From positions 28,940,610-29,004,609 of the forward strand of contig NC_030382.2 of assembly GCF_001625215.2 (NCBI RefSeq): a stretch of DNA of 64,000 nucleotides. Reading direction: 5' to 3'. Shown here in pieces: positions 6,548 to 60,522 of this stretch. Both the position numbers and the translations under genes were made by a program. Source of the stretch: Daucus carota subsp. sativus (Eukaryota > Streptophyta > Magnoliopsida > Apiales > Apiaceae). Within the stretch, counting starts at the first letter, position 1, and every line of letters begins with the position of its first letter. The notes beneath the pieces were generated by a model, which was not told the origin of the DNA, ran no database searches, and saw nothing but the letters and a program-made list of their open reading frames with translations.

Positions 6548-6603
6548 CATGTGCTAGTGACTTATTATTTCATTTTCAGTGTACAAGAAACCTTCTATAT
6601 AAA
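6548..6603 (+). promoter_or_regulatory. SAUR core promoter: CATGTG E-box and TATATAAA
   Basis: CATGTGCTAGTG at 6548 followed by TATATAAA at 6596-6603, 117 bases before the ATG. The same pair, 40-50 bases apart, is present at 9584/9632 and 31475/31523, and survives without a gene at about 15207 and 55013. Confidence 0.65.
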
Positions 6604-6719
6604 CATAGGGAATTCGACATAAATCAACACAAGCTTACTACCAAACCTTCATTTCTTTCATCAAGCATCCTCTAGTCCTTTCCCTCTCGACACCATTCTA
6701 AGAACACCAACTAAGAATT

Positions 6720-7013
6720 ATGGGTATCCGCATGCCTCGTATTCCTCATGTCAAGAAAATCTTTCAGGGGTCTTCTTTTGCAACTACAGCAGTTTCAGAC
6801 GTCCCAAAGGGCTGCTTGGCAGTTTATGTTGGGGAGAGCCAAAGAAAAAGATTTGTTGTTCCAATTTCATACTTGGCTGAGCCTGCCTTCCAGGACTTGC
6901 TATGTCAAGCTGAGGAGGAATTTGGTTTTGATCATCCAGAGGGGGGTCTTACAATTCCCTGCAGAGAAGATGTGTTTAGAGATCTCGCCTCAAGCTTGAG
7001 AAGAAAATCATAG
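6720..7013 (+). CDS. SAUR: SAUR protein, 97 aa (MGIRMPRIPHVKK type)
   Basis: Intronless. The N-terminal lead (1-27) is followed by the SAUR domain: [12 protein letters not shown] at 28-39, [18 protein letters not shown], then [19 protein letters not shown], ending RRKS. It resembles soybean auxin-induced 15A/10A5/6B proteins. In that family the proteins are short-lived and bind PP2C.D phosphatases, which keeps the plasma-membrane proton pump phosphorylated and promotes cell expansion. The start is the first ATG after the TATA box and is shared with all sister copies. Nearly identical to the products at 9758 and 31648; it differs from the 9758 product at two residues (Tyr/Phe in the ISYLAEP region, Arg/Thr in VFRDL). 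Confidence 0.95.
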   Translation: MGIRMPRIPHVKKIFQGSSFATTAVSDVPKGCLAVYVGESQRKRFVVPISYLAEPAFQDLLCQAEEEFGFDHPEGGLTIPCREDVFRDLASSLRRKS

Positions 7014-7734
7014 AGAAGAACCTGACCAAAATTAGTAGTTTAGAAATTTTTTGTAAGCTTGTAGGAGATAAATTAGATTAGGTTGGACCATAGGCATAAT
7101 TATGCAAATACTTTCTTCCTGTATCTCAAGGAATCATTTTCAATGAGGAAGATCGTCACTCAGAATTTTGTAAAATATTAAACTATTTACATCCCAATTA
7201 TATTTTTATGATCTGATTATGTTGTTTGCAAATAACTCCTATCTGTAATCAGTTCCACGTTATTCTGAAATTGATCGAAATTGGCACATAATAGTGTGTT
7301 AAAAGATACATTTCTTGAAAATTGATATGGGAGAAAGCATCCTCTTATCTTAAATTCCTATATCTCAGAAAGATTTAGTCAGAACCTATCTACAGTTGCT
7401 CTGTGATCATATTTACTGTGAGACCGAAATTGATAAGCATCAACCTGCAGAAGATACTTGGCAAGGTATAACAATGTTTCAAGTTATGATTCTGTTTGCT
7501 TCAATTTAAATCTGCAGCACATACATTATTTCATTTATTTTATGCTATAGATTGATCATCTATACAAAAAATGTGCTACATTATGTGTTCCACAAATGTA
7601 TACCTGACCAAGACTTAATGTGAAATACAAATTCAAATGGGAACTTTAAGTTGATATTTTCCCCTACCTTTCTGTGTTACTGATCAGTCTATCTCAACTA
7701 ATTCCTTAGCCATTCATCTTTCTTGGTAAGTCCT

Positions 7735-7790
7735 AATTATATAAAACAGTTTATGTTGGGGAGAGATAATGGAGAAGAACTATTGTCTAT
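7735..7790 (+). pseudogene. SAUR scrap (VYVGE motif only)
   Basis: AAACAGTTTATGTTGGGGAG matches the VYVGE codons of neighbouring SAURs, but no SAUR frame continues on either side. Surrounding 7014-7734 is module X 3' flank without genes. Confidence 0.45.
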
Positions 7791-8300
7791 TGAGACGGTA
7801 TCTATTTCTGGTGGTAAACATCTCATGTTGAATTCTTATACACGGAAGTCATCAATTGTTAAACATCAATCAAGAGATTACAATAGAAAGAAGAACATCA
7901 GTTTGTACCTGCATTACCTTACTACTTCTGGTACCACAAAAATATAATATATGTGCTCAGACAAGGATTAGATGTTATAATTCCTGTGTGATGATGTTTA
8001 AAACCTCAAAAAATAGACAACCTATAATTCAAGATTATCATATATCGGCATGGTGTGTCTTGGTAGTCAGAGACGTATATTCCACACTCATACAGTCTTG
8101 CTATTCAGCTGATAATTGTAGGACAAAACCATGTGCAAGTGACTTATTATCACCAATGTATATGCATTAGTAGTCCTTGGTTTACTATTCAAGAATTGGT
8201 TCATCTGCTATATATGCACATCATTGGGATTTTAACTCTACTTATATTCCTATATTTCAGAAAGGATTAGTCGGAACCTATCAACAGTTGCTCTGGTCAG
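7790..8300 (+). repeat. Duplicated SAUR-upstream block, partner of 16700-17130
   Basis: Shares long runs with 16700-17130 (motifs TATTTCTGGTGGTAAACATC and GTGCTCAGACAAGG). In the second copy the block leads into a SAUR remnant at 17256, so this is probably an old SAUR promoter without its gene. The reading frames here are not conserved between the two copies. Confidence 0.5.
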
Positions 8301-8310
8301 TATATCTTTG

Positions 8311-8571
8311 TGTTGGAGTTTTTGATTAAATATTAAGAAACTAAGAATAAGAATACAGAACTGAATAGGATGGTTTTATGGGAAAAGACTTAATATTATT
8401 AGATTGATAAACTGAGTTTATATACATCACATATAGTAACTGCTAATCTATGTACAAGGCAGTTGTAACTGTCTGTAACTTCCTAGAAACCAACTATAAC
8501 TACCAGATGGCTACAACTACTTTATTTATTATCAATTAATACCCAGATAACAACTAAGGAACAATCCAACA
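8311..8571 (-). mobile_element. Probable solo LTR, Ty1-copia-like fossil
   Basis: Read on the - strand it runs TGTTGGATTGTT... to ...AACTCCAACA, with a TATATAAA box and a T-rich stretch inside, as in short copia LTRs. About 260 bases, no internal region. A target duplication could not be made out, so the ends are approximate. Confidence 0.5.
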
Positions 8572-8709
8572 TGATATTTTGCAGCAGCTAAAGCATAATT
8601 TCAACACTTTGTCAGGCTACTAAATGGAAAAAGAGAGTCTCACATTTATATACCAACCACTGACTACACTAAAAATTATCTAGTACTGCAATTTCTTTCT
8701 CATACAATG

Positions 8710-8982
8710 TTTAAGCAAGAAGTGAGTTTAAAGAATGTCTACTCTACATGGGATAGTAGGACCACCTTCTACATGATCAAACCTGGATTCTTTTTTGGCT
8801 TGACTTAATAAATTTTTGAAGGGAGGTTCACTTATTTATGCAATGGGAATTGTATAATCTACTTCTCTGGCCTCCCCAACATAAACTGCCATAAGCCTTT
8901 TGGAACAACAAGCACTGTTGAACTACCAAAATATCTCAACACAGAAGACTGATGGATACTTAACAGGAGAAATAACAGTCAT
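8710..8982 (-). pseudogene. SAUR pseudogene, psi-subfamily (MAVYVGEA type)
   Basis: The - strand reads as a decayed SAUR with a start-like ATG near 8982, a PKG-L-MAVYVGEAREV region and a C-terminal GGPTIPC-like stretch. The frame shifts between the PKG and AVYVGE motifs. Sister copies are at 14309-14603, 31100-31184 and 40819-40932; all are broken or partial, so the subfamily appears dead in this cluster. Confidence 0.65.
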
Positions 8983-9757
8983 ACACTTTGATGGTGTAAT
9001 AACAAAATTGACAGGAATGATTATAGAATGAAAGTATATGTAGATGAGAATTCTGATGGTTCGGCTAATTAGTTTACGTTAATTTGTTTGCAGTTCCCTT
9101 TTTCTGCGATTAGATATAAAAAGGAGAAATGAAAAATCATCTAAAATATGAAAAATCTACATGCCTTTCTCTTTGGCTCACCACATAGATTAACAACTCA
9201 GAGGCCATATCTATTTCTGCTAGGAAACATCTCATGTTCCCAATTGATTGCTTATGTGCACCACCTGAAAAATCAATACTTGTGCATCAGATAAAGATTT
9301 CAAGAGAGAGTATCACATGGGTCAGTATTTATGTTACCCTACTGCTTCTTGTACCAAAAAATCCAAATACATGCATCAGACAAGGATTAGAAGGTTGATT
9401 TTATGTTTGATTATGTTAAAATTCAAATAACTGGACACCTAAATATTGAAGGAAGAGCTATCAGACAACTAAGAAATTTGATTATCCTTGGTATTTGTAG
9501 GGCAAGTTGTGTCTTGGTAAGCAGAGACATATATCCCAAACTCCTCCAACCTTGTTATTCATTCTGTATTTGTAGGACATCACCATGTGCTAGTGACTTA
9601 TTATTTCATTTTCAGTGTTCAAGAAACCTTCTATATAAACATAGGGAATTTGACATAAATCAACACAAGGCTTACTATCAAACCTTCATTTCTTTCATCA
9701 AGCATCGTCTAGTCCTTTCCCTCTTGACATCCATACTAAGAATACCAACTTAGAAAC
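8975..9757 (+). repeat. SAUR module X, copy 2, upstream part
   Basis: Non-coding flank homologous to 5924-6719, with the conserved CATGTG at 9584-9589 and TATATAAA at 9632-9639. A 116-codon open frame across 9403-9753 is not conserved in the other copies and is taken as chance. Confidence 0.7.
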
Positions 9758-10051
9758 ATGGGTATCCGCATGCCTCGTATTCCTCATGTCAAGAAAATCT
9801 TTCAGGGGTCTTCTTTCGCAACTACAGCAGTTTCAGACGTCCCAAAGGGCTGTTTGGCAGTTTATGTTGGGGAGAGCCAAAGAAAAAGATTTGTTGTTCC
9901 AATTTCATTCTTGGCTGAGCCTGCCTTCCAGGACTTGCTATGTCAAGCTGAGGAAGAATTCGGTTTTGATCATCCAGAGGGGGGTCTTACAATTCCCTGC
10001 AGAGAAGATGTATTTACAGATCTCGCCTCAAGCTTGAGAAGAAAATCATAG
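9758..10051 (+). CDS. SAUR: SAUR protein, 97 aa (MGIRMPRIPHVKK type)
   Basis: Near-identical twin of the 6720 gene, with ISFLAEP in place of ISYLAEP and VFTDL in place of VFRDL. The whole domain from VPKG to TIPC is intact and the frame ends RRKS. Upstream and downstream sequence is also duplicated, so this is a recent module duplication rather than a retrocopy. The same TATA and E-box arrangement suggests shared expression with 6720 and 31648. Confidence 0.95.
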   Translation: MGIRMPRIPHVKKIFQGSSFATTAVSDVPKGCLAVYVGESQRKRFVVPISFLAEPAFQDLLCQAEEEFGFDHPEGGLTIPCREDVFTDLASSLRRKS

Positions 10052-11413
10052 AGAAGAACATGATCAGTATAAGTAGTTTAGAAATTTTTTGTAAGGTAGT
10101 AGGAGATAACTTAGAATAGGTTGGACCAAAGACATAATTATGCAAATACTTTCTTCTGGTATCTCATGGAATCATTTTCAATGAGGAAGATCATTACTTA
10201 AAATTTTGTAAATTATTAAACTATATACATCCCGATAATATTTTTATGATCTAATTATGTTGTTTGCAAATAACTTCCCATCTGTTACCAGTTACACATT
10301 ATTCTGAAATCAATCGAAATTGGCATATAATATTTTGTTAACAGATAAATTTCTTGAAAATTGATATGGGAGAAAGCAGCCTCTTATCTTATATTCCTAT
10401 GTTTCAAAAAGAATTAGTCAGAACCTATCTACAGTTGCCCTGTAGTCATATTTACTGTTAGACCGAAATTGATCAAGCATCGACCTGCAGAAGATACTTA
10501 TCAGTAACTTTGATAGTCAAATCAGTAACTTTTGCATGTAATGTAAAGCAAATTCTATTTAGAAATTAATCTCCTTATCAAAGATTTAAACTGTGAATGT
10601 CAAGTCTGGTCAGAGTTGGAAAGTTAAACTTATCTACCCAGAACCTATATTTCAGATGCAATGATTGTTGAATGCAGAAAGGTACTAAAATGAAAGAAAA
10701 TGGAATGAAACATCAAGCTTATCAGTTGCTTACATGAAGACTACAAAAAAACCTGCACAACTGAAATTGGAGGGTTGAGTCTGTTAAGTGTTAGAGTGAA
10801 ATTGACTAAACATGTTCTTCACATCCATACAAAAAGATCTTGGTAAATCCAGGATAGCAATATGTATGAATAAATAGATACTAATTAACTAAGCAAAAGA
10901 GATTTTTCACTGATGATTTCGAAAAAACATATGTCTGCGTAATTAGATGGTTACTCTAATTTTCCCTAGGTTATCGAATGGAGGGGGATTAACTAGTATA
11001 CTTTACAAACTAGAACCTTGCAAAATTGTTAGTACCAGATAATAGCTATTTGTTTCTTATATCTGCGCAAGACTAAAGTGAGGTTAACGAATGTCTTCTC
11101 TACATGGAAACGCCACTTCAGACTATAATGACATGGAAATTGCTCTTCTCTTGAACAATTAAATTTGTGATTGGAACCAATAATGTATAATGCTGCTTAT
11201 CTATATAACTATATTTCAAATAAAAAGTACTTATAAATATATATAATGACTACATAGTGATTGCAAAGATCATATCCATGTAGAAATTAATGTGATCAAA
11301 GTACAAAGTATCAGCTAATGCTCTACCAAAAATATTTATATGAGAGTCATATATAAAATATCTGGACTAGTCTACAAAATTTGTACACTATCTAACAACA
11401 TATATATAAACTC
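10052..11413. other. Intergenic: 3' flanks of two facing SAURs, no gene
   Basis: The left part (to about 10500) is module X 3' flank. The right part (10500-11413) is the downstream flank of the - strand SAUR at 11414 and is repeated at 18300-19361, 24170-24987, 33470-33794 and 56740-57557 (motifs AAACTTATCTACCCAGAACC and CAAAATTGTTAGTACCAGAT). No coding frame is conserved among the copies. Confidence 0.65.
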
Positions 11414-11701
11414 TCATAATCTGTTCAACATATCAATGAAGGTGTCTTCGTTGCATGGAATTGTGAGGCCGCCTTCTGGATGACTAAACCCAAATTCTTC
11501 CTCTGCTTGACTTAACAGGTCTTGGAAAGTAGGCTCGTTTAAGTAAGAGATCGGAACTACAAATCTTCTTCTTTGGTCCTCCCCGACATAAACTGCCATG
11601 CATCCCTTCGGGACATTTGTACTACGATCAAGATTTGTTGAGGAGAATTGGCGGTTGAGAATTTGCTTGAGACTAGTGATACGAGGAACATGAATACCCA
11701 T
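11414..11701 (-). CDS. SAUR: SAUR protein, 95 aa ([13 protein letters not shown] type)
   Basis: Complete intronless [23 protein letters not shown] lead, [17 protein letters not shown] at about 30-46, [31 protein letters not shown]-type core, TIPC, then an NRL end. It forms a divergent pair with 12494 and is close to 26643 in sequence and setting. Its promoter carries CACATG at 11914-11919, about 215 bases upstream of the ATG. Expected role as for the other SAURs. Confidence 0.94.
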
Positions 11702-12493
11702 GATGCTAAAATCAAAAATTTGTAGTATTCAGGATAAACTCTGCTGATATTGAAATACAAGGACTTGTGCAGATGGAAGGCTTAGACACTTGAATACAAT
11801 TGATTATGTGATGAATTTGGTTGAGTTTATAATAGCTATTTTATAGAGCACATAGGAAGTAGTATCGAACGATTGAACATTTGATTGAGTGGCGCAGATG
11901 AATTAGGCATTAGCACATGCTATTCTCTCTCAATGGCCACATATGTTTAAGATTTATGGTAGGACTTAAATGTCTGTTAAGAAACATCATGTCCTACTAC
12001 TTTTGTTCTACAAATCTGAACCTGATATCTTCTCATCTAAATATGTGTTATGTGAACGCCATACAAATAATTTGGCTTGAAACTCTTGAGTTTTAGTTAG
12101 GTGCTCATGTGATAGTGTTTTCATTCACCCATCCTAGCTGTTATTTTGTTGCATTGATGAATCATTTAGTAGAAAACAGTAGCTGCTGGGGCTTAATCAA
12201 GCAGACTCCGTAGGGCTTGATGTCTCGCAACACACATAAATCAAATCTTCTTGGTCATATATACTTGTAGCTATTAGAACAGAATATCATGTGCAAGTGT
12301 CTATTGCTTCTTCGCCCCACGGATAATATTTTGGATAAATTGTTTGAGAAGTTCTATCATCTATGTTCTATATATACATATATTTAAGCATTAGTAGAAT
12401 TCATCACAAACTCAATTGCTTCAAGCCTTAAACTTACATTTCCTTGCGTTTCTGGTGTATCGCCCAACTCTTCACTAAAATATCTATAGCAGA
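11702..12493. promoter_or_regulatory. Bidirectional SAUR promoter (790 bp)
   Basis: Lies between divergent SAURs. It holds a CACATG block for the left gene (11914-11919), and for the right gene an auxin-response-type TGTCTC (12221-12226), a CATGTG block (12288-12293) and a TATA box (12369-12376). The same order recurs at 26931-27703 and, less completely, at 59477-60522. Regulation by ARF and bHLH/PIF-type factors is inferred from these motifs only. Confidence 0.6.
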
Positions 12494-12790: not shown

Positions 12791-12964
12791 CGGAAACCAA
12801 TTCATATACATGTAGATAGTATTCCGATCTCATTTGATGAGCTTCTGAGTGTAAATTGTAGAATAGGATTAGTTTATAACTATTATGTAGGCAACGTCTA
12901 ATTTGATCCCCCATTTTTGTTGATATTTCTACCATTTCTTATAACAAGTTTACGTTGAGCAGTA

Positions 12965-13080
12965 AAAAATTCCAATTATCATACCTGAATGAGGCTGCCT
13001 TCCAAGACTTGTCAAGTTAAGCCCAAGAAGAACATGTGTTGAATCATTCAAAAGGTGCCTTCATAATTCTCGACACCTTC
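12965..13080 (+). pseudogene. SAUR C-terminal remnant downstream of 12494
   Basis: Encodes a decayed SYLNEAAFQDL stretch, then an [13 protein letters not shown]-like stretch with stops and changes. It has no start and no promoter. It is either a relic of an older tandem copy or an unequal crossover product. Confidence 0.55.
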
Positions 13081-14603: not shown

Positions 14604-15763
14604 ACGGTTTTCATGGTGTAATGAAAAAATTGACAGGAATGATTATATAATGAAAGTAGATGTGGATGAAAATTTTGATGGTTCGGCTAATTAGTTTATG
14701 TTGACTTGTTTGCAGTTCCATTTTTCTGCGATTAGATATAAAAAGGAGAAATGAAATATCATCTAAAATATGAGAAATTCACACGCCTTTCTCTTTGGCT
14801 CACCACATAGATTAACAACTCAGAGGCCATATCTATTTCTGCTAGGAAACATCTCATGTTCCCAATTGATTGCTTATGTGCACCACCTCAAAAATCAACA
14901 CTTCTGCATCAGATAAAGATTTCAAGAGAGAGTAGCACATGGGTCTGTATTTATGTTACCCTACTGCTTCTTGTACCACAAAGCCAAATACATGCTTCAG
15001 ACAAGGATTAGAAGGTTGATTTTACGTTTGATTATGTTAAAAATTCAAATAATTGGACTCCTAAAAATTTAAGGCAGAGCTATCAGACAACTAAGATATT
15101 TGATTATCCTTGGTATGTGTAGGGCAAGTTGTGTCTTGGTAAGCAGAGACATATATCCCAAACTTCTCCAACCTTGCTACACATTCTGTATTTGTAGGAC
15201 ATCACCATGTGCTAGTGACTTATTATTTCATTTTCAGTGTTCAAGAAACCTTCTATATAAACATAGCGAATTTGACATAAATCAACACAAGGCTTACTAG
15301 CAAACCTTCATTTCTTTCATCAAGCATCGTCCACGTATAACATAAATCAAGTATCTGTGATCAGTTCCACGTTATTCTGAAATTTATCGAAATTGGCATA
15401 TAATAGTGGGTTAACAGATAAATTTCTTGAAAATTGATATGGGAGAAAGCAGCCTCTTATCTTATATTCCTATATTTCAGAAAGATTTAGTCAGAACCTA
15501 TTACAGTTTCTCTGTGATCATATTTACTAGACCGAAATTGATCAGGCATCGACCTGCAGAAGATACTTGGCAAGGTATAACAATAATGCTTCAAGTTGCT
15601 TCAAGTTAAATCTGCAGCACATACATTATTTCATTTATTTTATGTTAGAGATTGATCACCCCTAGACAAAAAATGCGCTACATTATGTGTTCTACAAATG
15701 TATACCTGATCAAGACTTGATATGAAATTACAAATTCAAATTGGAACTTTAAGTTGATATTTT
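14604..15763 (+). repeat. SAUR module X, copy 3: promoter without gene
   Basis: The upstream region and core promoter (CATGTG near 15207, TATATAAA near 15255) match the modules of 6720, 9758 and 31648. At about 15332, where the leader and coding region should follow, the sequence jumps to the module's 3' flank (GTTCCACGTTATTCTGAAAT). The coding region is therefore deleted. What remains is an orphan promoter plus terminator-side flank. Confidence 0.7.
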
Positions 15764-16694: not shown

Positions 16695-17255
16695 GTAACT
16701 TTTGAGACAGATTCTATTTCTGGTGGTAAACATCTCATGGACCCAGTTGAATGCTTATACATAGAAGAACAGAGAAGTAATCAATTATTAAACATCAATC
16801 AAGAGATTACAATAGAAAGTAGCACATCAGTTTGTACCTGCATTACCTTACTACTTCCCGTACCACAAAAATATAATATATGTGCTCAGACAAGGGTTAG
16901 ATGGTATGATTCCTGTGTGATGGTGTTTAAAATCTCAAAAAATAGACAACCTATAAATTCAAGATCATCATATGTAATACGGCAGGGTGTGTCTTGGTCA
17001 TACAGTCTTCCTATTCATTTGATATTTGTAGGACAAAACCATGTGGAAGTGACTTATTATCACCAATGTATATGCATTAGTAGTCCTTAATTTACTATTC
17101 AAGAATTGGTTCATCTGCTATATAAGCACATCATTGGGATTTTAACGGAAACCATTTTAAGCTTAACACTATTAACCTTCATTTGTTCGTCTAGCCATTG
17201 GTTAGTCATCTACCTCATTAACATTCATTCCATGCACATAAAGTCACTTACAATC
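16695..17255 (+). repeat. SAUR-upstream block, partner of 7790-8300
   Basis: Non-coding flank with TATATAAG near 17120. It leads into the SAUR remnant at 17256 and shares long runs with 7790-8300. Confidence 0.5.
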
Positions 17256-17376
17256 ACGTCTATTCACATTCCTCGTATTCCTCATGTCAAGCAAATTTGT
17301 GAAAAAAAATCTGCATATACAGCAAAACAATTAGCAGCGACGTCTATGGATATAAAGAAGTTGCTGGATATCTCGT
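17256..17376 (+). pseudogene. SAUR 5' remnant with lost start codon
   Basis: ACGTCTATTCACATTCCTCG corresponds to ATGGGTATTC... in intact copies, so the start codon is lost (ACG). The frame continues IHIPRIPHVKQICEKKSAY to a stop near 17378, with no SAUR core. A shorter copy of its 3' half is at about 55702-55775, and a still shorter scrap is near 32860. Confidence 0.6.
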
Positions 17377-17787
17377 AGGTGGAAAAAACATTGTCACATG
17401 AAGACCTTATTTGTGAACCCCGCCATAAAACAATTAAGTCTCTAGGAAAATTGTAGGACATCAAGTGTTAATGTATACCATTTCAATATAATGTCACTTT
17501 CTGTAAATTTGTTGTGGATGATTTGATAAGTAGGGGCATGCTGTCTTGCAACAGACAGAGAAGTCATTCTATCTGTCATAAATATATGTAGCTATTGAAA
17601 GAGAAATTCATGTGCTAGTGTCTAATGCCTCTTCACCACTCAAGTTACATTTTGATGAACTGTTCAATTTTCTATATAAATACATAACTGGGTATTAATA
17701 AATTTCACCACAAAACTCAATTGTCTAAAGTCTTCACTATACAAGTCCTTTACTTTCTCCATATTCTCTAATTGATCTAATAGTATT
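17377..17787 (+). promoter_or_regulatory. Promoter of SAUR 17788
   Basis: Homologous to the upstream regions of 33288 and 56210. Contains CATGTG (17609-17614) in the conserved block and TATATAAA (17673-17680). The site that is TGTCTC in the 12494 type is TGTCTT here. Confidence 0.6.
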
Positions 17788-19649: not shown

Positions 19650-20335
19650 GATGCTCAAGAAAAATTGAAACTTCAACGGATAATCTCTGGGGATATCGAA
19701 AATACAAGAACTTCTGAAGATGGAAGGCTTAGACCCTTAATTACACTTGATTTTGTGATGAAATTGGTTGAGGATATCACAGTTTTTATATAGAAATGAC
19801 AAGTAATGAGTGGTTGATTTAAATGCAGATTGAGTGGCACAGATGCATTAGGCAATAGCACATGCTATTCTCTTTCAAAGGCCACACATATTTAAGAGTA
19901 ATGTCTGTTGAGAGACGTCAATTCCTACTGCTTCTGTTCAACAAATCTGGACCTGATATATTCTCATGTCCTACTGATAGTGTAGATAAGACAGAATATA
20001 ACATAAAATATACGGATATGAACAAGATACAGATAATTTGGCTGGAAAGTCCTCACTTTGCCTGGAAACCAAGGTAGCAAATTTTATGTTGTTAGTTTTT
20101 GTGGTCAGTAGTTGTGGGTGGGACAGACAAGTTAGGTACTCATGTGATAGTGTTTTCATTCACCTAGCCTAGCTGTTTATTTTGTGTAGTAGGAAACACC
20201 TGATACAAGTTGTTATATCCATGAAAGAAAGGGCAAATTTATGTAAGAAATAGATGACTGTTAGGATTTTGTGTGTTAGGATTATAAGTTTTTATATGTT
20301 TATATTCACAAAACAAAAAGTAAATAAAAATAGAC
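19650..20335. other. Promoter and upstream flank of SAUR 19362
   Basis: Homologous to 25276-25900 and 57846-58440. Holds the leader, TATA, the CACATG block and non-coding sequence. No gene. Confidence 0.55.
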
Positions 20336-21384: not shown

Positions 21385-22478
21385 GTTGAAATATAGCATA
21401 AGGTCCATTCTAGGCCTTCCTCTAACACTTTAAGGTTTCAGATGGATTGTTTTTCAACATGGTATCAGCCATCAGGGCTCTGATTTGGCGGAGGTCTCAA
21501 ATGTCCACGTAGGCATTAATTACCCCAAAGATGGGCGCCCGTGATTCCCTCTTTAACCCAAAAATGGGACTCCAGACCGCGTCTTCACTAATTCCTTGAG
21601 AGCCGTCATTTTGGCTCACAACTTCACCACTTCTGATGAATGACCTTTACTTGAGCAATCCTCCTTCAATTCCTCATGCTCCGACCAATCATCTGCAGAT
21701 GCTTTCTTCTTGCGTCGAAACGAGCTATACGAGCCAACCGAATCCTCCCTTCTAGAGCGTTCACTATACGCTGAACCTCGAAAGGAGGATTCGTAATCCT
21801 CTGTTGGATACTCGGATGAAGCAACATGCTCATCCTTCTTTTTCGCAAATTCCTCTTCCCATTTCTCAGCCTCACGCCTCTGCTTCATCTGAAACTCTAT
21901 CCATCTCCGCTCGCGGTCAAGGGTGTCAAGTTCGCTCTTGATCGCTTCACGGTTCAACTGCTCCTTATCTTCAACAGCCAATCTTTTGGCCTTAAGCTTC
22001 TCTAAATGCAATCTCGCATCACCAGAATGTGCCTTTTTACCTTGCGGCGTCACTGCCAGTGTGCGTGTACGGCGACGTCGCCTACTACCACCTCCGGTAG
22101 GATCCGAATAAGCCGGACCACCGCGAGATTCACCTGCTCTAGTTTCGAACAGCTTTTTGTGTTTTAGTGTCTATCTCCTTAGTTACTATCACCTCTCGTG
22201 TTTCCAGAACTTGTATCGTCTCCCTCGCTTCATCTGCCATGGTAGATCTGCCCCCTCCTTCTAGCGCCAAATGCTGATCTGCCCTCTCCTTCTAGCGCCA
22301 AATGCTGGAACAGTGTATGTATGTTTATTACAGAGTGTATGTATCTATTCTATTCTCAGATTCCAACCCTGTGTTAGCTGCTCTGTTTATATAGCACTCT
22401 GGCACGTGACTTCCTCATGCTTGCTGTTTGGGCTTATTCTTCTTTGGGCTGCCTCTCACTCTGGGCCAAGGCCCAACA
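21385..22478 (-). mobile_element. Nested or truncated LTR retroelement fossil(s) with gag-like frame
   Basis: On the - strand a short LTR (about 22304-22477, TGTTGGGCCTTGGCC... to ...TGTTCCAGCA, with TATATAAA inside) is followed by TTTGGCGCTAGAAGG, a primer-site-like sequence, and then a gag-like charged, coiled-coil protein region (22240 to 21616) rich in Arg, Lys and Glu. At the left (21385-21470) a different small LTR-like end, TGTTGAAATATAGC... followed by TGGTATCAG, points the other way, suggesting a second short element. Polymerase is missing and the gag-like region is broken at least once. Family uncertain. Confidence 0.55.
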
Positions 22479-25275: not shown

Positions 25276-26037
25276 GATGCTCAAGAAAAATTGAAACTTC
25301 AAAGGATAATCTTCGGGGATTATGGAGAATACAAGAACTTCTGCAGATGGTAGGCTTAGACCCTCAATTAGACTTGATTTTGTGATGAATTTGGTTGAGG
25401 ATATCACAGTTTTTATATGGAAATAGCAAGTAATGAGCGGTTGATCAAAATGCAGATTGAGTGGAACAGATGCATTAGGCAATAGCACATGCTATTCTCT
25501 TTCAAAGGCCACACATATTTAAGAGTAATGCTAGGACTTGAATGTCTGTTGAGAGACATCATGTCCTACAAATCTGGACCTTATATTTTGTCATTTAAAT
25601 TTAGGTTTTATGCGTATAGTGGAGTTAAGACAGAATATAACACAATATATACGGATATGAACAAGGTACAAAAAATTTGGGTGGAAAGTCCTCACTTTGC
25701 CTGGCAAGCAAGGTAGCAAATTTTAAGTTCTTAGTTTTTGTGGTCAGTATTTCTGGGTGGGACAGACAAGTTAGGTACTCATGTGATAGTGTTTTCATTC
25801 ACCTATCCTAGCTGTTTATTTTGTGTAGTAGGAAACACCTGATACAAGTTGTTATATCCATGAAAGAAAGGGCAGATTTATGTAAGAAACAGATTATCAG
25901 ACTTACTACACAACTTTCTGATTGTTCTATATAAACACATAATTAAGCTCACTGGTCTAAAGTCTTTTCCATAAAACTATACAAGTCCTAGTGTTTATCC
26001 AGTTTCCTGAACTCTTCTCTGAAAGATCTTTGGTGTC
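25276..26037. promoter_or_regulatory. Promoter of SAUR 24988 and upstream flank of the 26038 remnant
   Basis: The leftmost 215 bases hold the leader, TATA and CACATG block for 24988. The right end (TATATAAACACATAATTAAG near 25931, then CTTCTCTGAAAGATCT) matches the promoter of 60523. Confidence 0.55.
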
Positions 26038-26930: not shown

Positions 26931-27703
26931 GATGCTAAAATCAAAAATTTGTAGTATTCAGGATAAACTCTGCTGATATTAAAATACAAGGACTTTTGCA
27001 GATGGAAGGCTTAGAACTTGAATACAATGGATTATGTGATAAATTTGGTTGAGTTTATAATAGCTATTTTATAGAGCACATAGGAAGTAGTATTGAACAT
27101 TTGATTGAGTGGCACAGATGAATTAGGCATTAGCACATGCTATTCTCTCTCAATGGCCACATATGTTTAAGACTAATGGTAGGACTTAAATGTTTGAGTC
27201 TTGTAGTGTGGATAAGAGAGTATACAAAAATGTTTGAGTCTTGTAGTGTGGATAAGAGAGTATACAAATAATTTGGCTGGAAACTCTTGAGTTTTAGTTG
27301 TGACAGACAAGTTAGGTGCTCATGTGATTGTGTTTTCATTTACCCATCCTAGCTGTTTATTTTGTTGAATTGATGAATCATTTAGTAGAAAACAGTAGCT
27401 GCTGGGGATTAATCAAGCAGACGTAGTAGGGCTTGATGTCTCGCAACACACATAAATCTAATCTTCTTGGTCATATATACTTGTAGCTATCAGAACATAA
27501 TATCATGTGCTAGTGTCTACTGCTTCTTCACCACTCGGATAATATTTCTAATAAATTCTTTGAGTAGTTCTATGTTCTATATATACATATATTTAAGCAT
27601 TCGTAGAATTCATCACAAACTCAATTGCTTCAAGCTTTAAACTTACATTTCCTTGTGTTTCTGTTGTTTCCCCCCAACTTTTCACTAAAAGATCTGTTGC
27701 ATC
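26931..27703. promoter_or_regulatory. Bidirectional SAUR promoter (770 bp)
   Basis: Duplicate of 11702-12493: CACATG (27134-27139) for the left gene; TGTCTC (27437-27442), CATGTG (27504-27509) and TATATATA (27578-27585) for the right gene. It contains a 40-bp tandem duplication at 27191-27270 that the older copy lacks. Confidence 0.6.
27191..27270. repeat. 40-bp tandem duplication in SAUR promoter
   Basis: Two head-to-tail units starting TGTTTGAGTCTTGTAGTGTG, differing at one base. Confidence 0.9.
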
Positions 27704-31185: not shown

Positions 31186-31647
31186 AGATAAAGATTTCAA
31201 GAGAGACTAGCACATGGGTCTGTATTTATGTTACCCTACTGCTTCTTGTACCACTAAATACATGCTTCAGACAAGGATTAGAATGTTGATTTTATGTTTG
31301 ATTATGTTAAAAATTCAAATAACTGGACACCTAACTATTAAAGGCAGAGCTATCAGACAACTAAGAAATTTGATTATCCTTGGTATTTGTAGGGCAAGTT
31401 GTGTCTTGGTAAGCAGAGAATATATCCCAAACTCCTCCAACCTTGCTATACATTCTCTATTTGTAGGACATCACCATGTGCTACTGACTTATTATTTCGT
31501 TTTCATTGTTCAAGAAACCTTCTATATAAACATAGGGACTTTGACATAAATCAACACAAGCATACAAGCAAACCTTCATTTCTTTTATCAAGCATCGTCT
31601 CATCCTTTCCTTCTCGACATCCACTTTAAAAATACCAACTTAGAAAC
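31186..31647 (+). repeat. SAUR module X, copy 4, promoter part
   Basis: CATGTG at 31475-31480 and TATATAAA at 31523-31530, as in copies 1 and 2. Confidence 0.7.
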
Positions 31648-31941: not shown

Positions 31942-33287
31942 AGAAGAACATAATCAAAAAAGTAGTTTAGAAATTTTTTGTAAGCTAGTAGGAGATAAGT
32001 TAGAATAGGTTGGACCAAAGGCATAATTATGCAAATACTTTCTTCTGGTATCTCATGGAATCATTTTCAATGAGGAAGATCATTACTTAAAATTTTGTAA
32101 AATATTAAACTATATACTTCCCATTATAATTTTATGATCTAACTATGTTGTTTGCAAATAACTTCCTATCTGTAATCAGTTCCACGTTATTCTCAAATTG
32201 ATCGAAATTGGCATATAAGATTGTGTTAACAGATAAATTTATTGAAAATCGATATGGGAGAAAGAAGCCTCTTATCTTATATTCCTATATTTCAGAAAGA
32301 ATTAGTCAGAACCTATCTACAGTTGCTCTGTGATCATATTTACTGTGAATACTAAATTGATCAAGCATCGACCTGCATAAACATACAATTCTCCTGTATT
32401 TCCATCGCGAAGATCATTGCATAAAAAGCGGTCAATTTATAAACAATCTATATCTCCTATTATATCCTTTGACCGGATTATTTAGCTTGATTGCCTTCCT
32501 CATTTACATCATTTCCACATAATTCAGCAATTAAATCAACAGTTGCATCTAATTGTGTGTAAGAAGTATGGTTTCATGAAGAACTTGAATGTCTTTTCCC
32601 TATATATGGTTTCTCTCTGACATTTGTTTCTTTAGAGGGAATTGATCTTTTCCCTATATATGGTTTCATGAAGAACTTGAATGTCTTTCCCTATATATTT
32701 GTTTCTTTAGAGGGCATGCCGAAAACACTTTAAAAAGGTAAAAACAATATACTAATTTTCTTTTGGACTGTTCTGTAGAAGGATATGTTCATTAAACCTT
32801 TTCTGACAGTCAATTTATTTCTGGTGGTTTCTATTTCTTCATGTTTTATCTCTTAGGTAGAAAAAACATTGTCACATGAAGACCTAATATGTGAAACCCG
32901 CCATAAAATTATTGATGACATAATATGCAAATTGTAGGACATCACGTGTTTATGTATACCATTTCAAGATAATGTCACTTTCTGTAATCTATTGTGGATG
33001 ATTTGGGTAGAGATTTGATAAGTAGGGGCATGCTGTCTTGCAACAGACAGAGAAGTCATTCTATCACTCATAAATACATGTAGCTATTGAAAGAGAAAAT
33101 CATGTGCTATTGTCTAATGCCTCTTCACCACTTGAAGTACAAATTGATGAACTGTTCAATATTTTCTATTTTTGTATATAAATACATAACAGGGCATTAA
33201 TAAATTCATCACAAACTCAATCATCTAAAGTCTTCACCATACAAGTTCTTTTCTTTCTCCATATTCTCTAAACAATCTAGGAGTATT
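31942..33287. other. 3' flank of 31648 and promoter of 33288
   Basis: Module X flank runs to about 32380, then unique DNA with an imperfect local duplication (CCCTATATATGGTTTC and TTTGTTTCTTTAGAGGG recur at 32600-32715), then the 17788-type promoter with CATGTG at 33101-33106. No gene. Confidence 0.55.
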
Positions 33288-33518
33288 ATGGGTATTCATA
33301 TGCCTCGTGTTACTAATCTCAAGAAAATCTTTAACCCGTCTTCTTTCTTGATAAGTCCTGATTATACCTTAACAGTTCCAAAGGGGTGCTTGGCAGTATA
33401 TATCTTGGAGAAGCAAAGAAGAAGAAGACTTATCAAGAAAGAAGACGGGTTAAAGAAGAAGGGGGATTGTCTATTACATTACAAACTAGAACCTTCCAAA
33501 ATTGTTAGTACCAGATAA
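33288..33518 (+). pseudogene. SAUR pseudogene ending in an inverted copy of itself
   Basis: The 5' half matches 17788/56210 ([37 protein letters not shown]). At about 33426 it switches to ACTTATCAAGAAAGAAGACG and onwards, the reverse complement of its own codons at about 33330-33356. It then jumps to the 3' flank of the - strand SAUR (CAAAATTGTTAGTACCAGAT). The frame stays open to 33518 by chance, but the second half of the SAUR domain is gone. Gly of YIGE is Leu. Confidence 0.85.
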
Positions 33519-34082: not shown

Positions 34083-34901
34083 GATGCTCAAGAAAATTAA
34101 AACTTTAATCTCGGGGGATATGGAAAATACAAGAACTTCTGCAGACTGAAGGCTTAGACCCTCAATTACACTTGATTTTGTGATGAATTTGGTTGAGGAG
34201 ATCACAGTTTTTATATAGAAATAACAAGTAATGAGCGGTTGATCAAGATGCAGATTGAGTGGCACAGATGCATTAGGCAATAGCACATGCTATTCTCTTT
34301 CAAAGGCCACACATATTTAAGAGTTCATACGAAGGTCATCGACATACATATAATGGCTGGAAACTGTCAAGTTCGACAGGCAAGGAATCAAATCTTATGC
34401 TTTTATTGGTCAATAGTCTTAGGTGGGATAGGCAAGTTTGGTGCTCATGTGACGGTGTTTTCTTGACCTATCTCAGCTGCATCTTTTGTTGAATTGATGT
34501 CTGTTTAAAACAGATTATCAGATTAAATGGATCCAACATCTTTGACATGGTCTAGCTGCATTATGTCAAAATATCAACTTGGAGCTGGAAGAAACAGTGT
34601 CACATGAACACTTATGATTTCAACCCCACCATAATCAGTGCAGACAAACCCAAAACATAAAATCCATATCATGCCACCCACCTATTGAAAGAGAAAATCA
34701 TGTGCTAGTGTCTATACTCACCGCTCAATGTAGAATTTGATGAGATGTTCTACACAACTTCCTGATTGTTCTGTATAAACACATAACTAAGCGATACTAA
34801 CATTCATCACAAACTCACTGGTCTAAAGTCTTTCGTATAACTATACAAGTCCTAGTGTTTCTTCAGTTTTCTGAACTCTTCTCTGAAAGAGCTATAGTGT
34901 C
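34083..34901. promoter_or_regulatory. Bidirectional SAUR promoter (820 bp)
   Basis: Joins the 19362-type promoter on the left (CACATG 34284-34289) to a 60523-type promoter on the right (CATGTG 34699-34704, TATAAACAC near 34773). The right half from about 34320 is duplicated at 59780-60522. Confidence 0.55.
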
Positions 34902-54560: not shown

Positions 54561-54784
54561 TGTTCATTCTCTCTCTAACAAACTTGAATCACACTAATGA
54601 AAATCAAATAAGCTTTATCTTAATATTTTCCGCTCCCTTAATGCGCTGAAAGTGCTATGTGACGGGATTTCTCTTCTCCCAAAACAGTGTGCAATTGTTG
54701 ATTGAAAAATATTTAACTTTTAGGCACTAGAGGATGATGAAGCTTTTTGCTGATCAACACTTGAGAGGCAGTTTCTCTGTCTCG

Positions 54785-55265
54785 GTACCACTAAATACAT
54801 GCTTCAGACAAGGATTAGAAGGTTGATTTTATGTTTGATTATGTTAAAAACTCAAATAACTGGACACCTAACTATTAAAGGCAGAGCTATCAGACAACTA
54901 AAAATTTTGATCATCCTTGGTATTTGTAGGGCAAGTTGTGTCTTGGTAAGCAGAGACACATATCCCAAACTTCTCCAACCTTGCTATACATTCTGTATTT
55001 GTAGGACATCACCATGTGCTACTGACTTATTATTTCATTTTCAGTGTTCAAAAAACCTTCTATATAAACATAGGTATTTGTATATAAACCTTCTATATAA
55101 ACCTTCTATATAAACCTTATTATTTCTGTGATCATATTTACTCTGAGACCGAAATTGATCAAGCATCGACCTGCAGAAGATACTTGGCAAGGTATAACAA
55201 TAATGCTTCAAGTTACGATTCTGTTTGCTTTAAGTTAAATCTGCAGCACATGCATTATTTCATTT
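54785..55265 (+). repeat. SAUR module X, last copy: orphan promoter with TATA repeats
   Basis: Upstream region and CATGTG (near 55013) as in the gene-bearing modules. Where the leader should follow, the phrase CCTTCTATATAAA is repeated in a short array (55056-55110), then 3'-flank sequence starts. The SAUR coding region is deleted. Confidence 0.7.
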
Positions 55266-56209
55266 ATGTTATGTCAGCTTGTCTTGTTTATTGAGCTTGA
55301 CTCAAGAAATGATATTAGAAAGAAAACGTTGTAGTTATAATTGTCAGATTGTATTCATTATTGAGCATTATTTATGAAATGGTATCAAAAACATTTTCAA
55401 CAATAGCCATTTCAGCAAACAAATCTCCTGTATTTCCATCGCGAAGATGCATAAAAAGTGGTCAATTTATAAACAATTTATATCTCCTAGTTATATCCTT
55501 TGACCGGATTATTTAGCTTCAAAATGCCAGCAATTAAATCAACATTTGCATCTAATTGTGTGTAAGAAGTATGGCTTCCTGAAGAAATTGAAAGCATTAG
55601 CAATATACTAACTTTCTTTTGGATTTTTTTGTAGAAGAATTATGTTGATTAAATCTTTTCTGACAGTCAACTTATTTCCAGTGGTTTCTATTTCTTCATG
55701 TATTATTTGCATATACAGCAAAACAATTAGCAGCGACGTCTATGGATATAAAGAAGTTGCTGGATATCTAGTAGGTGGAAAATACATTGTCACATGAAGA
55801 CCTAATTTGTGAACCCCGCCATAAAATTATTGACAACAAAACTAAATTATGCCTCTATGAAAATTGTTGGACATCAGGCGTCCATTTCAAGAAAATGTCA
55901 CTTTCTGTAATCTATTGTGGATGATTTGCGTAGAGATTGATAAGTAGGGGCATGCTGTCTTGCAACAGACAGAGAAGTCATTCTATCACTCATAAATTTA
56001 TGTAGCAATTGAAAGAGAAAATCATGTGCTATTGTCTAATGCCTCCTCACTACTTGATGTACAAATTGATGAACTGTTCAACATTTTCTATATTTCTATA
56101 TAAATACACAACGGGGCATTAGTAAAATTCATCACAAACGCAATCATCTAAAGTCTTCATTATCAAGTTCTTTTCTTTCTCCATATTCTCTAAACAATCT
56201 AGGAGTATT
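55266..56209 (+). promoter_or_regulatory. Flank and promoter of SAUR 56210, with a SAUR scrap
   Basis: 55266-55700 matches 32390-32860 in parts. 55702-55775 is a copy of the 3' half of the remnant at 17256 (AGCGACGTCTATGGATATAA). Then the 17788-type promoter with CATGTG (56023-56028) and TATATAAA (56097-56104). Confidence 0.55.
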
Positions 56210-56506
56210 ATGGGTATTCGTATGCCTCGTGTTACTAATCTCAAGAAAATCCTTAACCAGTCATCATTCTTGTTAAGTCCCGATTATACTTCAACAGTTC
56301 CAAAGGGATGCTTGGCAGTATATATTGGGGAGAAGCAAAGAAGAAGATTTGTGGTTCCCATTTCATACCTGAATGATCCTGCCTTCCAAGACTTGTTAAA
56401 TCAAGCTGAGGAAGAATTTGGGTTCAGCCAACCAGAAGGCGGCCTCACTATTCCCTGCTCAGTGGACACATTCATTCACCTTACTTCACGCCTAGATAGA
56501 TTATAG
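56210..56506 (+). CDS. SAUR: SAUR protein, 98 aa ([13 protein letters not shown] type)
   Basis: [20 protein letters not shown] lead, [52 protein letters not shown], ending SRLDRL. Close sister of 17788 and the best surviving reference for the broken copies at 22479 and 33288. Convergent with 57558 across 1.05 kb. Confidence 0.95.
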   Translation: MGIRMPRVTNLKKILNQSSFLLSPDYTSTVPKGCLAVYIGEKQRRRFVVPISYLNDPAFQDLLNQAEEEFGFSQPEGGLTIPCSVDTFIHLTSRLDRL

Positions 56507-57557
56507 TGAGAAAACATTTGTGTACTGGTAGATAGTACAGCATTGAAATGTACATAGTAGAATAGGGATTTTTATCAGATTTTTGTTGGCAACGCATAAT
56601 TTGAAACTCACCACTTTGTCCGATCTAAAATTACCATAGTAGATAGATTATAGCTTATTCTTATAAATCTAGATCAATATATAGAACGCCTGACAGAAAA
56701 AAGAGATCAAAATATAGAACGAAAAAGTTTGATACTCAAATCAGTAACTTTTGCATGTGACCTAAAGCTAATTCTCTGAAGGCAGGGACTTTTAAATATC
56801 TTAAACTTATCTACCCAGAACCTATATATGATGTTCTTGATAAAAACAGCAAATTTCAGATGCAATGATTGTTGAATGCAGACAGGTTTACATATAGTCC
56901 CTAGATACTAAAATGAAAAAAAAAAAAGGAATGAAACATCCATCCAACAAAAAACCAGCACAGTGAAATTGGAGGGTTGAGTCTGTCAACTATTAGAGTG
57001 AAATTATATAAACTTGTTCTTCACATCCATCCAAAGAGATCTCGGTAATTCCAGGATAGCAATATGTATGAATAAATAGATATTAATTAACTAAGCAAAA
57101 GAAATTCTTCACTGGTATCTAAAAATCATATTTCTGTGTAATGAGATGGTTACTCTAATTTTCCCTAGGTTATCAAATGAGGGGGATTGACTAGTATACA
57201 TTATAAACTAGAACCATGCAAAACTGTTAGTACCAGATAATAGCTATTTGTTTCTTATATCTGTGCAAGACTAAAGTGCGGTTAATGAATGTCTTCTCTA
57301 CATGGAAAAGCCACTTCAGACTATAAAGACATGGAATGTATAAAGCTGCTTATCTATATTTCAAATAATAAGTACTTATAAAGATATATAATGACTTCAT
57401 ACTGATTGCAGAGATCAAATCCATGTAGAAATTAATGTAATCAAATTACAAAGTATCAGTTAATGCTCTACCAAAAAGATCTATATGAGAGTCATATATA
57501 AAATTTCTGGACTAGTCTACAAAATTGTACACTATCTAACAAAATATATATAAACTC
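56507..57557. other. Intergenic between convergent SAURs, no gene
   Basis: Duplicate of 18085-19361, slightly shorter. Confidence 0.6.
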
Positions 57558-57845
57558 TCATAATCTGTTCAAGAGATCAATGAAGGTGTCTTCTTTGCAT
57601 GGTATTGTGAGGCCACGTTCTGGATGACTGAACCCAAATTCTTCCTCAGCTTGACTTAACAGGTCTTGGAACGTAGGCTCATTTAAGTAAGAGATCGGAA
57701 CGACAAATCTTCTTCTTTGGTTCTCCCCGACATAAACTGCTATACATCCCTTGGGGACATTTGTACTGCGATCAAGATTTTTTAAGGAAAATTGTCTGTT
57801 GAGAATTTGCTTGAGATTAGTGATATGAGGCACACGAATACCCAT
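57558..57845 (-). CDS. SAUR: SAUR protein, 95 aa, HPERGL variant
   Basis: [20 protein letters not shown] lead, [17 protein letters not shown], intact core, but FSHPERGLTIPC has Arg for the first Gly of the conserved HPEGGL. The frame is open 15 codons upstream; the conserved start is taken. It has CACATG at 58042-58047 and a reverse TGTCTC at 58109-58114. Sister of 19362, 24988 and 33795. Confidence 0.92.
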   Translation of the reverse strand: MGIRVPHITNLKQILNRQFSLKNLDRSTNVPKGCIAVYVGENQRRRFVVPISYLNEPTFQDLLSQAEEEFGFSHPERGLTIPCKEDTFIDLLNRL

Positions 57846-59188
57846 GATGCTCAAGAAAAATTGAAACTTCAACGGATATGGAGAAACCAAGAACTTCTGC
57901 AGATGGTAGGCTTAGACCCTTAATTACACTTGATTTTGAGATGAATTTGGTTGAGGAGATCACAGTTTTTATATCGAAATAACAAGTAATGAGCGGTTGA
58001 TGAAAATGTAGATTGAGTGGAACAGATGCATTAGGCAATAGCACATGCTATTCTCTTTAAAAGGCCACACATATTTAAGAGTAATGCTAGGACTTGAATC
58101 TCTACTGAGAGACATCATGTCCTACAAATATGGACCTGATATACGACAGAATATAACGTAATATATACGGATATGAACAACGTACAATTAATTTGGCTGG
58201 AAAGTCCCCACTTTGCCTGGCAAGCAAGGTATTTGTGGTCAGTAGTTAGGTGCTCATGTGATAGTGTTTTCATTCACCTATCCTAGATGTGAATTTTGTG
58301 TAGTAGGAAACACCTGATACAAGTTGTTATATCCATGAAAGGAAGGGCAAATTTATTGAAGAAACAGATTAATGGACTGTTAGGATTTTGTGTGGTAGGA
58401 AACACCTCATATAAGTTTTCATATATTTATATTCACAAAACAAATAGTAAATCAGAATGGGACAGGTAGATTGTTAAAATACAACCCTTAATATAACTCG
58501 GTCTTCTTGGCATGCTTAAAAATAAATCCGCTCACCCCAAAACCGATAATATCCGGTATGAGTTAAAAGAAATAAATTAAATTCTGGAAAAGAAGAACTA
58601 AGTTCCGAGAAAAAAGAAGGTAAAGACTCCTCCGAAGACCAGAAATATATAAGAACACGGTCAAACTTTTAATGTGACATTAAAAATTAAGACTAGCACA
58701 AAAGCCCCTGCGAGGCAAAGTTTAAATGTGAAATTAGAAACTAAGACCAGCACAAAAACCCCTACGAGGCACATGCTTTTAATTTAAATCATGTTTCTAA
58801 TTGATTGTTTATTATATTTATAGAATTTAAATTTTAATGTATTTGTTTGTTTTTAAATTTTAAATTGAACTTTTTGATACCTCTGTGTATTCTACTGTAA
58901 TTGATACTCGATTTATTGTTAGCAATTCAATATTAGCAAGATATATTAATTAAAATTATCCTCATTGACACAGTTTCTGTTTAATAAAACTCTTAAAACA
59001 TTTGTAACATACTAAACCAACAAAACAGACCTCTAGCAAAGGTTGATAGTATAGTCATCAGCATGCTCAAAACATGTAAAAGTTTACATGAAAGTCTCAG
59101 TCAGAATTAATATTCCTAGACTAGTTCACAGAGTTTGTACACTATCTAACAAAATTTAACTATGTCATATCTGCAGACATATAAACTT
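57846..59188. other. Promoter of SAUR 57558, then unique DNA
   Basis: 57846-58440 is the usual promoter flank. 58440-59080 is unique to this window apart from an internal duplication (AGACTAGCACAAAAGCCCCT near 58692 and AGACCAGCACAAAAACCCCT near 58743). No gene. Confidence 0.5.
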
Positions 59189-59476
59189 TCATAATCTGTT
59201 TAAGACATCAATGAAAGTGTCTTCTTTGCATGGAATTGTGAGGCCACCTTCCGGATGAGTAAACCCAAATTCTTCCTCAGCTTGACTTAACAGGTCTTGG
59301 AATGTAGGCTCATTTAAGTAGGAGACCGGAACCACAAATCTTCTTCTTTGGTTCTCCCCAACATAAACTGCCATGCATCCCTTGGGGACATATGTACTCC
59401 CATCAAGATTTGTAGAGGAAAATTGCCGGTTGAGAATTTGCTTGAGATTAGTGACACGAGGCATGCGGATACCCAT
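59189..59476 (-). CDS. SAUR: SAUR protein, 95 aa ([13 protein letters not shown] type)
   Basis: [20 protein letters not shown] lead, [57 protein letters not shown], ending LNRL. All conserved positions are present. It is the left partner of a divergent pair with 60523 and has CACATG at 59685-59690. The fragment at 37150-37243 is its segmental counterpart region or a close relative. Confidence 0.94.
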
Positions 59477-60522
59477 GATGCTAATGAAAAATTAAAGTTT
59501 TCAGAGTAAACTTTGGGGATATGCAATTACAAGGACCTCTGCAGATTGAAGCTTCGACACTAGAATACACTCAATTCTGAAATGACTTTGCTAAGTTTCC
59601 AACAGTGTTTATATAGAACGGACAGAATGTATTGAGCTGTTGATCAAATTGCAGATTGAGTGACACAGATGCATTAGGCATTAGCACATGCTATGCCTAA
59701 GGGTACGTAGGACTCTTATGTCTGTGAGTGACATCTTGTCCTACTACTTAATTGTGTTGAACAATTCTTAACCTGATTGTTTCTTATCTATAACAGAGTT
59801 TATACTAAGGTCATCGACATACATATAATGGCTAGAAACTGTCAAGTTCGATAGGCAAGAAATCAAATCTCATGCTTTTATTGGTCATATATAGCTGTAG
59901 GTGGGACAGGCAAGTTTCATGCTCATGTGATGGTGTTCTCTTGACCCACATAAGTCATGCTGCATTATGTGAAAATATCACTTGGAGCTGGAAGAAGCAG
60001 TGTCACATGAACACTTATTATTTCAACCCCACCATAATCAGTGCAGACAAACCCAATACATAAAATCCTTTGGAGGAGTCTTTAGCTATATACTAGTGAT
60101 TTTGTGTGCTCCATGTTAAATCTGCAGTGCTTTTATGCCTTTTCTTTAATTTTTATTTTACTTATACACATATAACTGTAGGACATCAACAAACGTATTC
60201 CAGGCCAAGATTACATATTGAGTCGTGATTTATTACTAGGACATTATGTCTCCCAACACATAAGATGTCCGCTTATCAGCCATTAATACATGTAGCTAGT
60301 GAAAGAGAAAATCATGTGCTAGTGTCTAATGCCTACCCACTGCTCAATGTACAACTTGATGAGATGTTCTATTCAAATTGTTGATTGTTCTATATAAACA
60401 CATAATTAAGCGATACTAACATTCATCATAAACACACTGGTCCAAAGTCTTTTCCTTAAAACTATACAAGTCCTAGTGTTTCTTCAGTTTCCTGAACTCT
60501 TCTCTGAAAGATCTATAGTGTC
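59477..60522. promoter_or_regulatory. Bidirectional SAUR promoter (1046 bp)
   Basis: CACATG (59685-59690) for the left gene. TGTCTC (60247-60252), CATGTG (60313-60318) and TATATAAA (60391-60398) for the right gene. 59780-60522 matches 34320-34901. Confidence 0.6.

Follow-up and report, generated by a model that had tools for sequence, protein, structure and literature searches.

We describe a short promoter block upstream of the SAUR genes of a tandem cluster in carrot (Daucus carota subsp. sativus), starting from a stretch of 64,000 bases (C2:28940610-29004609, on contig NC_030382.2; hereafter the window) of a 441 Mb genome in 11 contigs. The block carries the E-box CATGTG, stands in one orientation and at a narrow range of positions in every copy of the cluster with an intact start, and changes more slowly than any other stretch of these promoters. 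Its core is confined to the cluster, and it is accompanied by auxin response elements (AuxREs) and by a second E-box block. It is a Hormone Up at Dawn (HUD)/PIF-binding element (PBE)-type E-box, a familiar SAUR promoter element that is seen here in another plant genome. We consider it a probably selectively kept cis-regulatory element of the cluster that would be read by an E-box factor together with ARFs.

The proximal E-box block and its SAUR copies

In the window there are 17 SAUR starts whose frames are complete or long (10 on the + strand, 7 on the - strand), and these are part of a larger cluster at C2:28.947-29.218 Mb. We sorted the cluster copies by protein into subfamilies A (PHVKK type, n=6), P (n=15) and M (n=19); all window copies of P and A are on the + strand and those of M on the - strand. 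A genome search with the PF02519 (Auxin_inducible) profile gave at least 150 matches, and among those listed 16 of the 17 window starts are over the cut-off. The remaining start, SAUR 33288 (window 33288-33518), is a truncated P-type frame with no PF02519 match among those listed, and only its first 48 residues match a profile built from the SAURs of the window. Unless stated otherwise, the analysis rests on the 40 cluster copies that have an ATG at the predicted MGI-type start. This set was not picked by motif presence, and it omits copies without such an ATG and one 35-residue fragment (window 26038).

A first-pass annotation of the window had placed CATGTG before all 17 starts, and each of these hexamers is present; it reads in the direction of the gene and lies 172 to 218 bases before the ATG. 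The 20-base block proposed around it is found at 13 of the 17 sites with three or fewer mismatches (shuffle mean 0.01), including an exact match upstream of SAUR 33288. The sites at 6548, 9584, 31475 and 34699 fit that 20-mer only in part. Specifically, the first three, which belong to subfamily A, have a common CATGTGCTANTG (the first 12 bases of the 20-mer with one position free) followed by ACTTATTA, and the site at 34699 has CATGTGCTAGTGTCTA, the first 16 bases. The proximal blocks of the window, followed by four orphan blocks, are as follows.

6548..6567, +, proximal E-box block of SAUR 6720 (A)
9584..9603, +, proximal E-box block of SAUR 9758 (A)
11900..11919, -, proximal E-box block of SAUR 11701 (M)
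12288..12307, +, proximal E-box block of SAUR 12494 (P)
17609..17628, +, proximal E-box block of SAUR 17788 (P)
19845..19864, -, proximal E-box block of SAUR 19649 (M)
25472..25491, -, proximal E-box block of SAUR 25275 (M)
27120..27139, -, proximal E-box block of SAUR 26930 (M)
27504..27523, +, proximal E-box block of SAUR 27704 (P)
31475..31494, +, proximal E-box block of SAUR 31648 (A)
33101..33120, +, proximal E-box block of truncated SAUR 33288 (P)
34270..34289, -, proximal E-box block of SAUR 34082 (M)
34699..34718, +, proximal E-box block of SAUR 34902 (P)
56023..56042, +, proximal E-box block of SAUR 56210 (P)
58028..58047, -, proximal E-box block of SAUR 57845 (M)
59671..59690, -, proximal E-box block of SAUR 59476 (M)
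60313..60332, +, proximal E-box block of SAUR 60523 (P)
8130..8135, +, orphan block of subfamily-A type, no intact SAUR downstream
15206..15211, +, orphan subfamily-A promoter with block; homology to SAUR 6720 ends before the ATG
17040..17045, +, orphan block of subfamily-A type with only a short remnant of the start-codon region (17159-17296)
55013..55018, +, orphan subfamily-A promoter with block, no SAUR coding sequence downstream

Across the whole cluster, CATGTG lies at -160 to -242 in a single orientation in 40/40 copies, so that all of them have the HUD/PBE hexamer (CACATG/CATGTG) in the promoter. The claim that the block precedes every SAUR copy thus holds for copies with an intact start but not for all remnants, as no proximal block precedes at least four SAUR fragments of the window (near 8916 and 14503 on the - strand, and near 22401 and 26038 on the + strand). 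When any ATG is accepted, 41 of 46 cluster copies have CATGTG at -290 to -140, although for one of them, the 26038 fragment, this is a distal-type box (see below); the other five copies are fragments or have a different or missing 5' end. Among the copies omitted for want of an ATG, the block is present in 29007708, 29037238 and 29050097, there is no CATGTG in 450 bases in 28963010, 29009987, 29156441, 29170241 and two rows at 29215481/2, and 29039734 has a CATGTG of the distal type only. Within the window the hexamer occurs 54 times, as against 33.3 expected and a maximum of 45 in 100 shuffles. As a separate observation, two P-type frames (L074 at C2:29170241 and L075 at C2:29200316) have their first codons replaced by a common LLNSNKSLIHRS and have no CATGTG upstream.

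Slow change in the block and its confinement to the cluster

The first-pass annotation had proposed comparing the rate of change in the block with that of its flanks. We aligned 350 upstream bases of the 40 copies and counted parsimony changes per column on a coding-sequence tree. The block shows 1.25 changes per site, about 2.8 times fewer than the 3.52 of the 50-base flanks on either side, so the expectation of slower change was not refuted; the corresponding values are 3.79 for all well-filled columns, 3.18 for third codon positions and 1.43 for first codon positions. It is the lowest-rate 20-base window (rank 1 of 296, with the same rank on a promoter-based tree), 0 of 5000 column shuffles reached a window so low, and the CATGTG hexamer has zero changes across the 40 copies. 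These results support the view that the block has been selected rather than merely inherited. The block also comes first, of 299 windows, when only the 23 copies beyond the window, none of which the first-pass annotation had covered, are used, and it ranks 1 of 304 within subfamily P, where misalignment, which may inflate flank rates between subfamilies, is less of a concern. Identity across subfamilies is 80-85% in the block, 45-53% outside it and 57-59% at third codon positions.

The same annotation had stated that the promoters of the two strands otherwise differ widely. This is borne out by overall identity, which between M and P is 53% outside the block and 85% inside it, but not by every part of the promoter, as the TATA box, the start region, the AuxRE module and the second E-box block are common to both as well. 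The block is one of several kept promoter pieces and has the lowest rate among them. The TATA box, the start region, ATTGAAAGAGAA and GTAGGACAT often give longer shared words than the core of the block.

In the genome, the exact 20-mer has 13 matches, all of them in the C2 cluster, and the same is true for all 32 matches of the common core CATGTGCTANTGNCTWAT (control pattern, 0). With up to two mismatches, 35 of 40 matches lie in the cluster. With up to three there are 103 matches as against 23 for the reversed control; those listed include the repeated families CATGTGCTAGGGTTTGATGC and CATGTGCTAGTGTATAAATC, and there was no clear sign that it is used outside SAURs, although the surroundings of those other matches were not examined, so we rejected the 20-mer as a genome-wide element. 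A motif survey of 113 SAUR copies (46+17+7+43), for which an ATG, at least 300 upstream bases and a score of 20 were required and which leaves out some single SAURs, also ruled out that the block is common to all SAURs. Specifically, none of the 17 copies of a second SAUR cluster found by the profile search (C9:8.40-8.61 Mb) has CATGTG, CACATG or CACGTG in 450 bases, and 11 of the 17 have some CANNTG within 300 bases. Most copies of that cluster have their own kept promoter stretch around CCTTGGATCCACCGTT. In a group at C1:46.41-46.44 Mb, five of seven copies have CATGTG and three of seven the longer CAxxxxCATGTG, and among 43 other SAURs CATGTG occurs at -290 to -140 in three and the reverse, CACATG, in eight. 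E-boxes of this kind are therefore not confined to the cluster; it is the longer block that is.

The soybean SAURs of McClure (1989) and Li (1994) are said to be clustered in both orientations and to have conserved upstream elements, NDE and DUE, and the NDE is reportedly centred on CATATG. The hexamer of the carrot block is CATGTG, and CATATG is found at -290 to -140 in only 7 of the 46 cluster copies, so the block was not equated with the NDE.

Auxin response elements and a second E-box

Three features of these promoters had been missing from the first-pass annotation: an ARF core in the block, an AuxRE module upstream of it and a second, reversed E-box. The core, TGTC, is found in the 3' half of the block almost only in subfamily P, where CATGTG-N4-TGTC is present in 14 of 15 copies (the fifteenth has a 5-base gap), as against 1/19 in M and 0/6 in A. 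On the 5' side the mirrored arrangement GACA-N4-CATGTG is present in 6/6 A, 2/15 P and 0/19 M copies, and two P copies have both cores flanking the hexamer. M copies mostly have bases one substitution away from an ARF core on either side (GAGA 5' in 17/19, TGCC 3' in 18/19), and A copies have TGAC at the 3' place (6/6). With no TGTC in the block in 18/19 M and 6/6 A copies, an AuxRE composite was ruled out as a general description of the whole block. The SAUR15 composite AuxRE/HUD (Walcher and Nemhauser 2012, as cited in PMC4331925 and PMC4075450) is alike in having an E-box and an ARF core in one SAUR promoter region. Here this combination has the 4-base gap in P and the mirrored side in A.

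Upstream of the block, 39 of the 40 copies have TGTC or GACA within 120 bases. The AuxRE module (TGTCTC/TGTCTT plus CAGACA) lies mostly 40-75 bases upstream, and takes the form TGTC-N8-GACA in 9/19 M and 5/15 P copies and TGTC-N11..13-GACA in 4/6 A and 1/19 M copies. In addition, GTAGGACAT, the reverse complement of which contains the ARF core TGTC, occurs 12 times in the window as against 0.41 expected; it adjoins the E-box in A-type promoters and lies about 70-110 bases above the block in M and about 135-170 above it in three P promoters.

GTAGGACAT sites: window 6536, 9572, 11989, 15194, 17453, 19966, 25561, 31463, 32934, 55001, 58117, 60178

The second E-box reads CACATG on the gene strand. 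It is present in 30 of the 40 copies, between -301 and -567, with some 100-350 bases separating it from the proximal block downstream. The tally is of 31 boxes less that of 29007012, which is the proximal block of a neighbour; the rate profile still includes this copy. The sequence around the box is near ACAYYRTCACATGARNACYTA in M and P, and A diverges after the hexamer. Changes per site are 3.15 in the 20 bases from the hexamer, the hexamer's own rate being zero by selection of copies, 3.5 in the ten preceding bases, and 8.8 and 8.2 outside. The distal M/P pattern with one mismatch allowed has 26 genome matches, all in the C2 cluster (control, 1). A single distal box lies between the divergent pairs 11701/12494 and 26930/27704, and two lie between 34082/34902 and 59476/60523.

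6277..6282, -, distal reversed E-box of SAUR 6720
9314..9319, -, distal reversed E-box of SAUR 9758
12106..12111, +, distal reversed E-box of SAUR 11701, between divergent pair 11701/12494
17395..17400, -, distal reversed E-box of SAUR 17788
20141..20146, +, distal reversed E-box of SAUR 19649
25780..25785, +, distal reversed E-box of SAUR 25275
27321..27326, +, distal reversed E-box of SAUR 26930, between divergent pair 26930/27704
31211..31216, -, distal reversed E-box of SAUR 31648
32873..32878, -, distal reversed E-box of SAUR 33288
34446..34451, +, distal reversed E-box of SAUR 34082
34601..34606, -, distal reversed E-box of SAUR 34902
55791..55796, -, distal reversed E-box of SAUR 56210
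58255..58260, +, distal reversed E-box of SAUR 57845
59924..59929, +, distal reversed E-box of SAUR 59476
60004..60009, -, distal reversed E-box of SAUR 60523

Adjoining the SAUR cluster, at window 3983-5849 on the + strand, are frames that, by eye, resemble pieces of a cytochrome P450 gene.

Candidate readers of the block and competing explanations

The reading of the block as an E-box, already made in the first-pass annotation, agrees with the Arabidopsis SAUR literature (PMC5735953, PMC4075450). The Class I SAUR motif CAxxxxCATGTG is present in 28 of 50 auxin-induced Arabidopsis SAURs, in 2 of 20 others and in 56 of 500 random promoters (van Mourik et al. 2017, PMC5735953); PIF5 binds CATGTG, and a second factor may bind beside it (PMC5735953). 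This motif belongs to the same gene family and has the same hexamer in an extended form, and it fits 8 of the 40 carrot copies (A 6/6, P 2/15, M 0/19), which is to say subfamily A but not the block as a whole. The extension kept here is instead 3' (CTANTGNCT), and is absent from the motif description in the accessible portion of PMC5735953. The HUD/PBE element CACATG is alike in its hexamer, its SAUR targets and its neighbouring AuxREs (PMC4075450, PMC4930942, PMC5853796) and has been described as a PIF site (PMC4930942) and tied to the early auxin response (PMC5853796); the carrot hexamer differs in having one orientation and a narrow position range in 40/40 paralogues, and in lying within a longer block. 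SAUR15 is co-occupied by ARF6 and BZR1, PIF4 and BZR1 raise ARF6 binding there, and the E-boxes (CACGTG, CACATG) of ARF6 peaks are mostly within 20 bp of TGTC (PMC4075450). In the open-access literature, no title or opening of an abstract among the matches listed describes a kept SAUR-cluster block of this kind, which is not proof of absence.

The factors that bind, their coupling and the output are most likely those indicated by this published Arabidopsis work. A growth-promoting E-box factor (a PIF-type bHLH and/or BES1/BZR1) would bind the proximal CATGTG as well as the reversed upstream E-box, and would work with ARFs at the TGTC/GACA sites adjoining the block and mostly about 40-75 bases upstream of it, such that auxin, brassinosteroid and light or temperature would jointly set the amplitude of SAUR transcription. 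A PIF would be only one candidate reader, and it is possible, if somewhat doubtful, that a kept block is read mainly by BES1/BZR1 or by a NAC (for example RD26) and not by a PIF, with the E-box reporting brassinosteroid or drought more than light. BES1 and the NAC factor RD26 each bind the CATGTG E-box and act through it (PMC5333127), and CATGTG has been named as a NAC core (PMC6214087). However, the present data do not discriminate among these factors; CACATG is bound by PIFs as well (PMC4930942), and one site may serve all of them. As regards BES1/BZR1 this alternative overlaps with our preferred reading of an E-box factor acting with ARFs, and the confidences placed in the two are not additive.

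Several observations weigh against that preferred reading. Within M the block ranks 15 of 306, with 233 of 5000 shuffles equally low, which indicates weak constraint. Within A it ranks 92 of 253 and no constraint is visible, but this subfamily, whose promoters are 93.5% identical outside the block, is too young to be informative. An alignment-free test of the longest shared word did not pick out the block: its core is part of that word in 47 of 489 cross-subfamily promoter pairs (A-M 7/114, A-P 19/90, M-P 21/285), and is so seldom included because block positions 10 and 13 vary. The hexamer also persists in the four orphan promoters without an intact gene, and since the 3' half is kept in M and A without an ARF core, ARF binding accounts for part of the block at most. 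Finally, BZR1 is weak in vitro on single CATGTG-type sites, even though this is its best E-box variant, and the DNA-binding domains of BZR1 and PIF4 do not cooperate in vitro (PMC12668046).

The orphan promoters, the evident duplication and the similarity of the A promoters are what would be expected if recent tandem duplication and gene conversion had left the block merely unchanged so far. We regard such plain inheritance as highly improbable, given that the same copies show a 2.8-fold higher rate of change in the flanks, that the block holds the lowest rank with no shuffle matching it, and that between subfamilies third codon positions are less alike than the block. It is also quite improbable that the block serves the core promoter or its spacing and is conserved for reasons unrelated to E-box factors. 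The single orientation and the narrow distance from the block to the first TATA match downstream (48 bases in A, 64-81 in P and M, in the 17 window copies) would suit such an element, but the invariant core is exactly an E-box, the second E-box block is reversed and at variable distance, and an unrelated study of Arabidopsis SAURs arrived at CAxxxxCATGTG (PMC5735953).

A further, unlikely idea is that the block forms a mirror-symmetric E-box/ARF grammar, GACA-N4-CATGTG-N4-TGTC, in which single bases would switch auxin coupling, with P keeping the right core, A the left and M neither. If true, one tandem cluster would hold three grades of auxin coupling on a constant E-box platform, with the genes of some divergent pairs having the second, reversed E-box in common.

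For the SAUR family, the rates reported here make an independent case that constraint acts, in a second plant genome, on an E-box known statistically from the SAUR promoters of Arabidopsis. What adds most to the first-pass annotation is that the 40 paralogous promoters form a natural series: the E-box is the same in all of them, and the ARF core next to it may be present, mirrored or missing. With such a series, the effects of the E-box and of ARFs on SAUR induction could be told apart in naturally occurring promoters.

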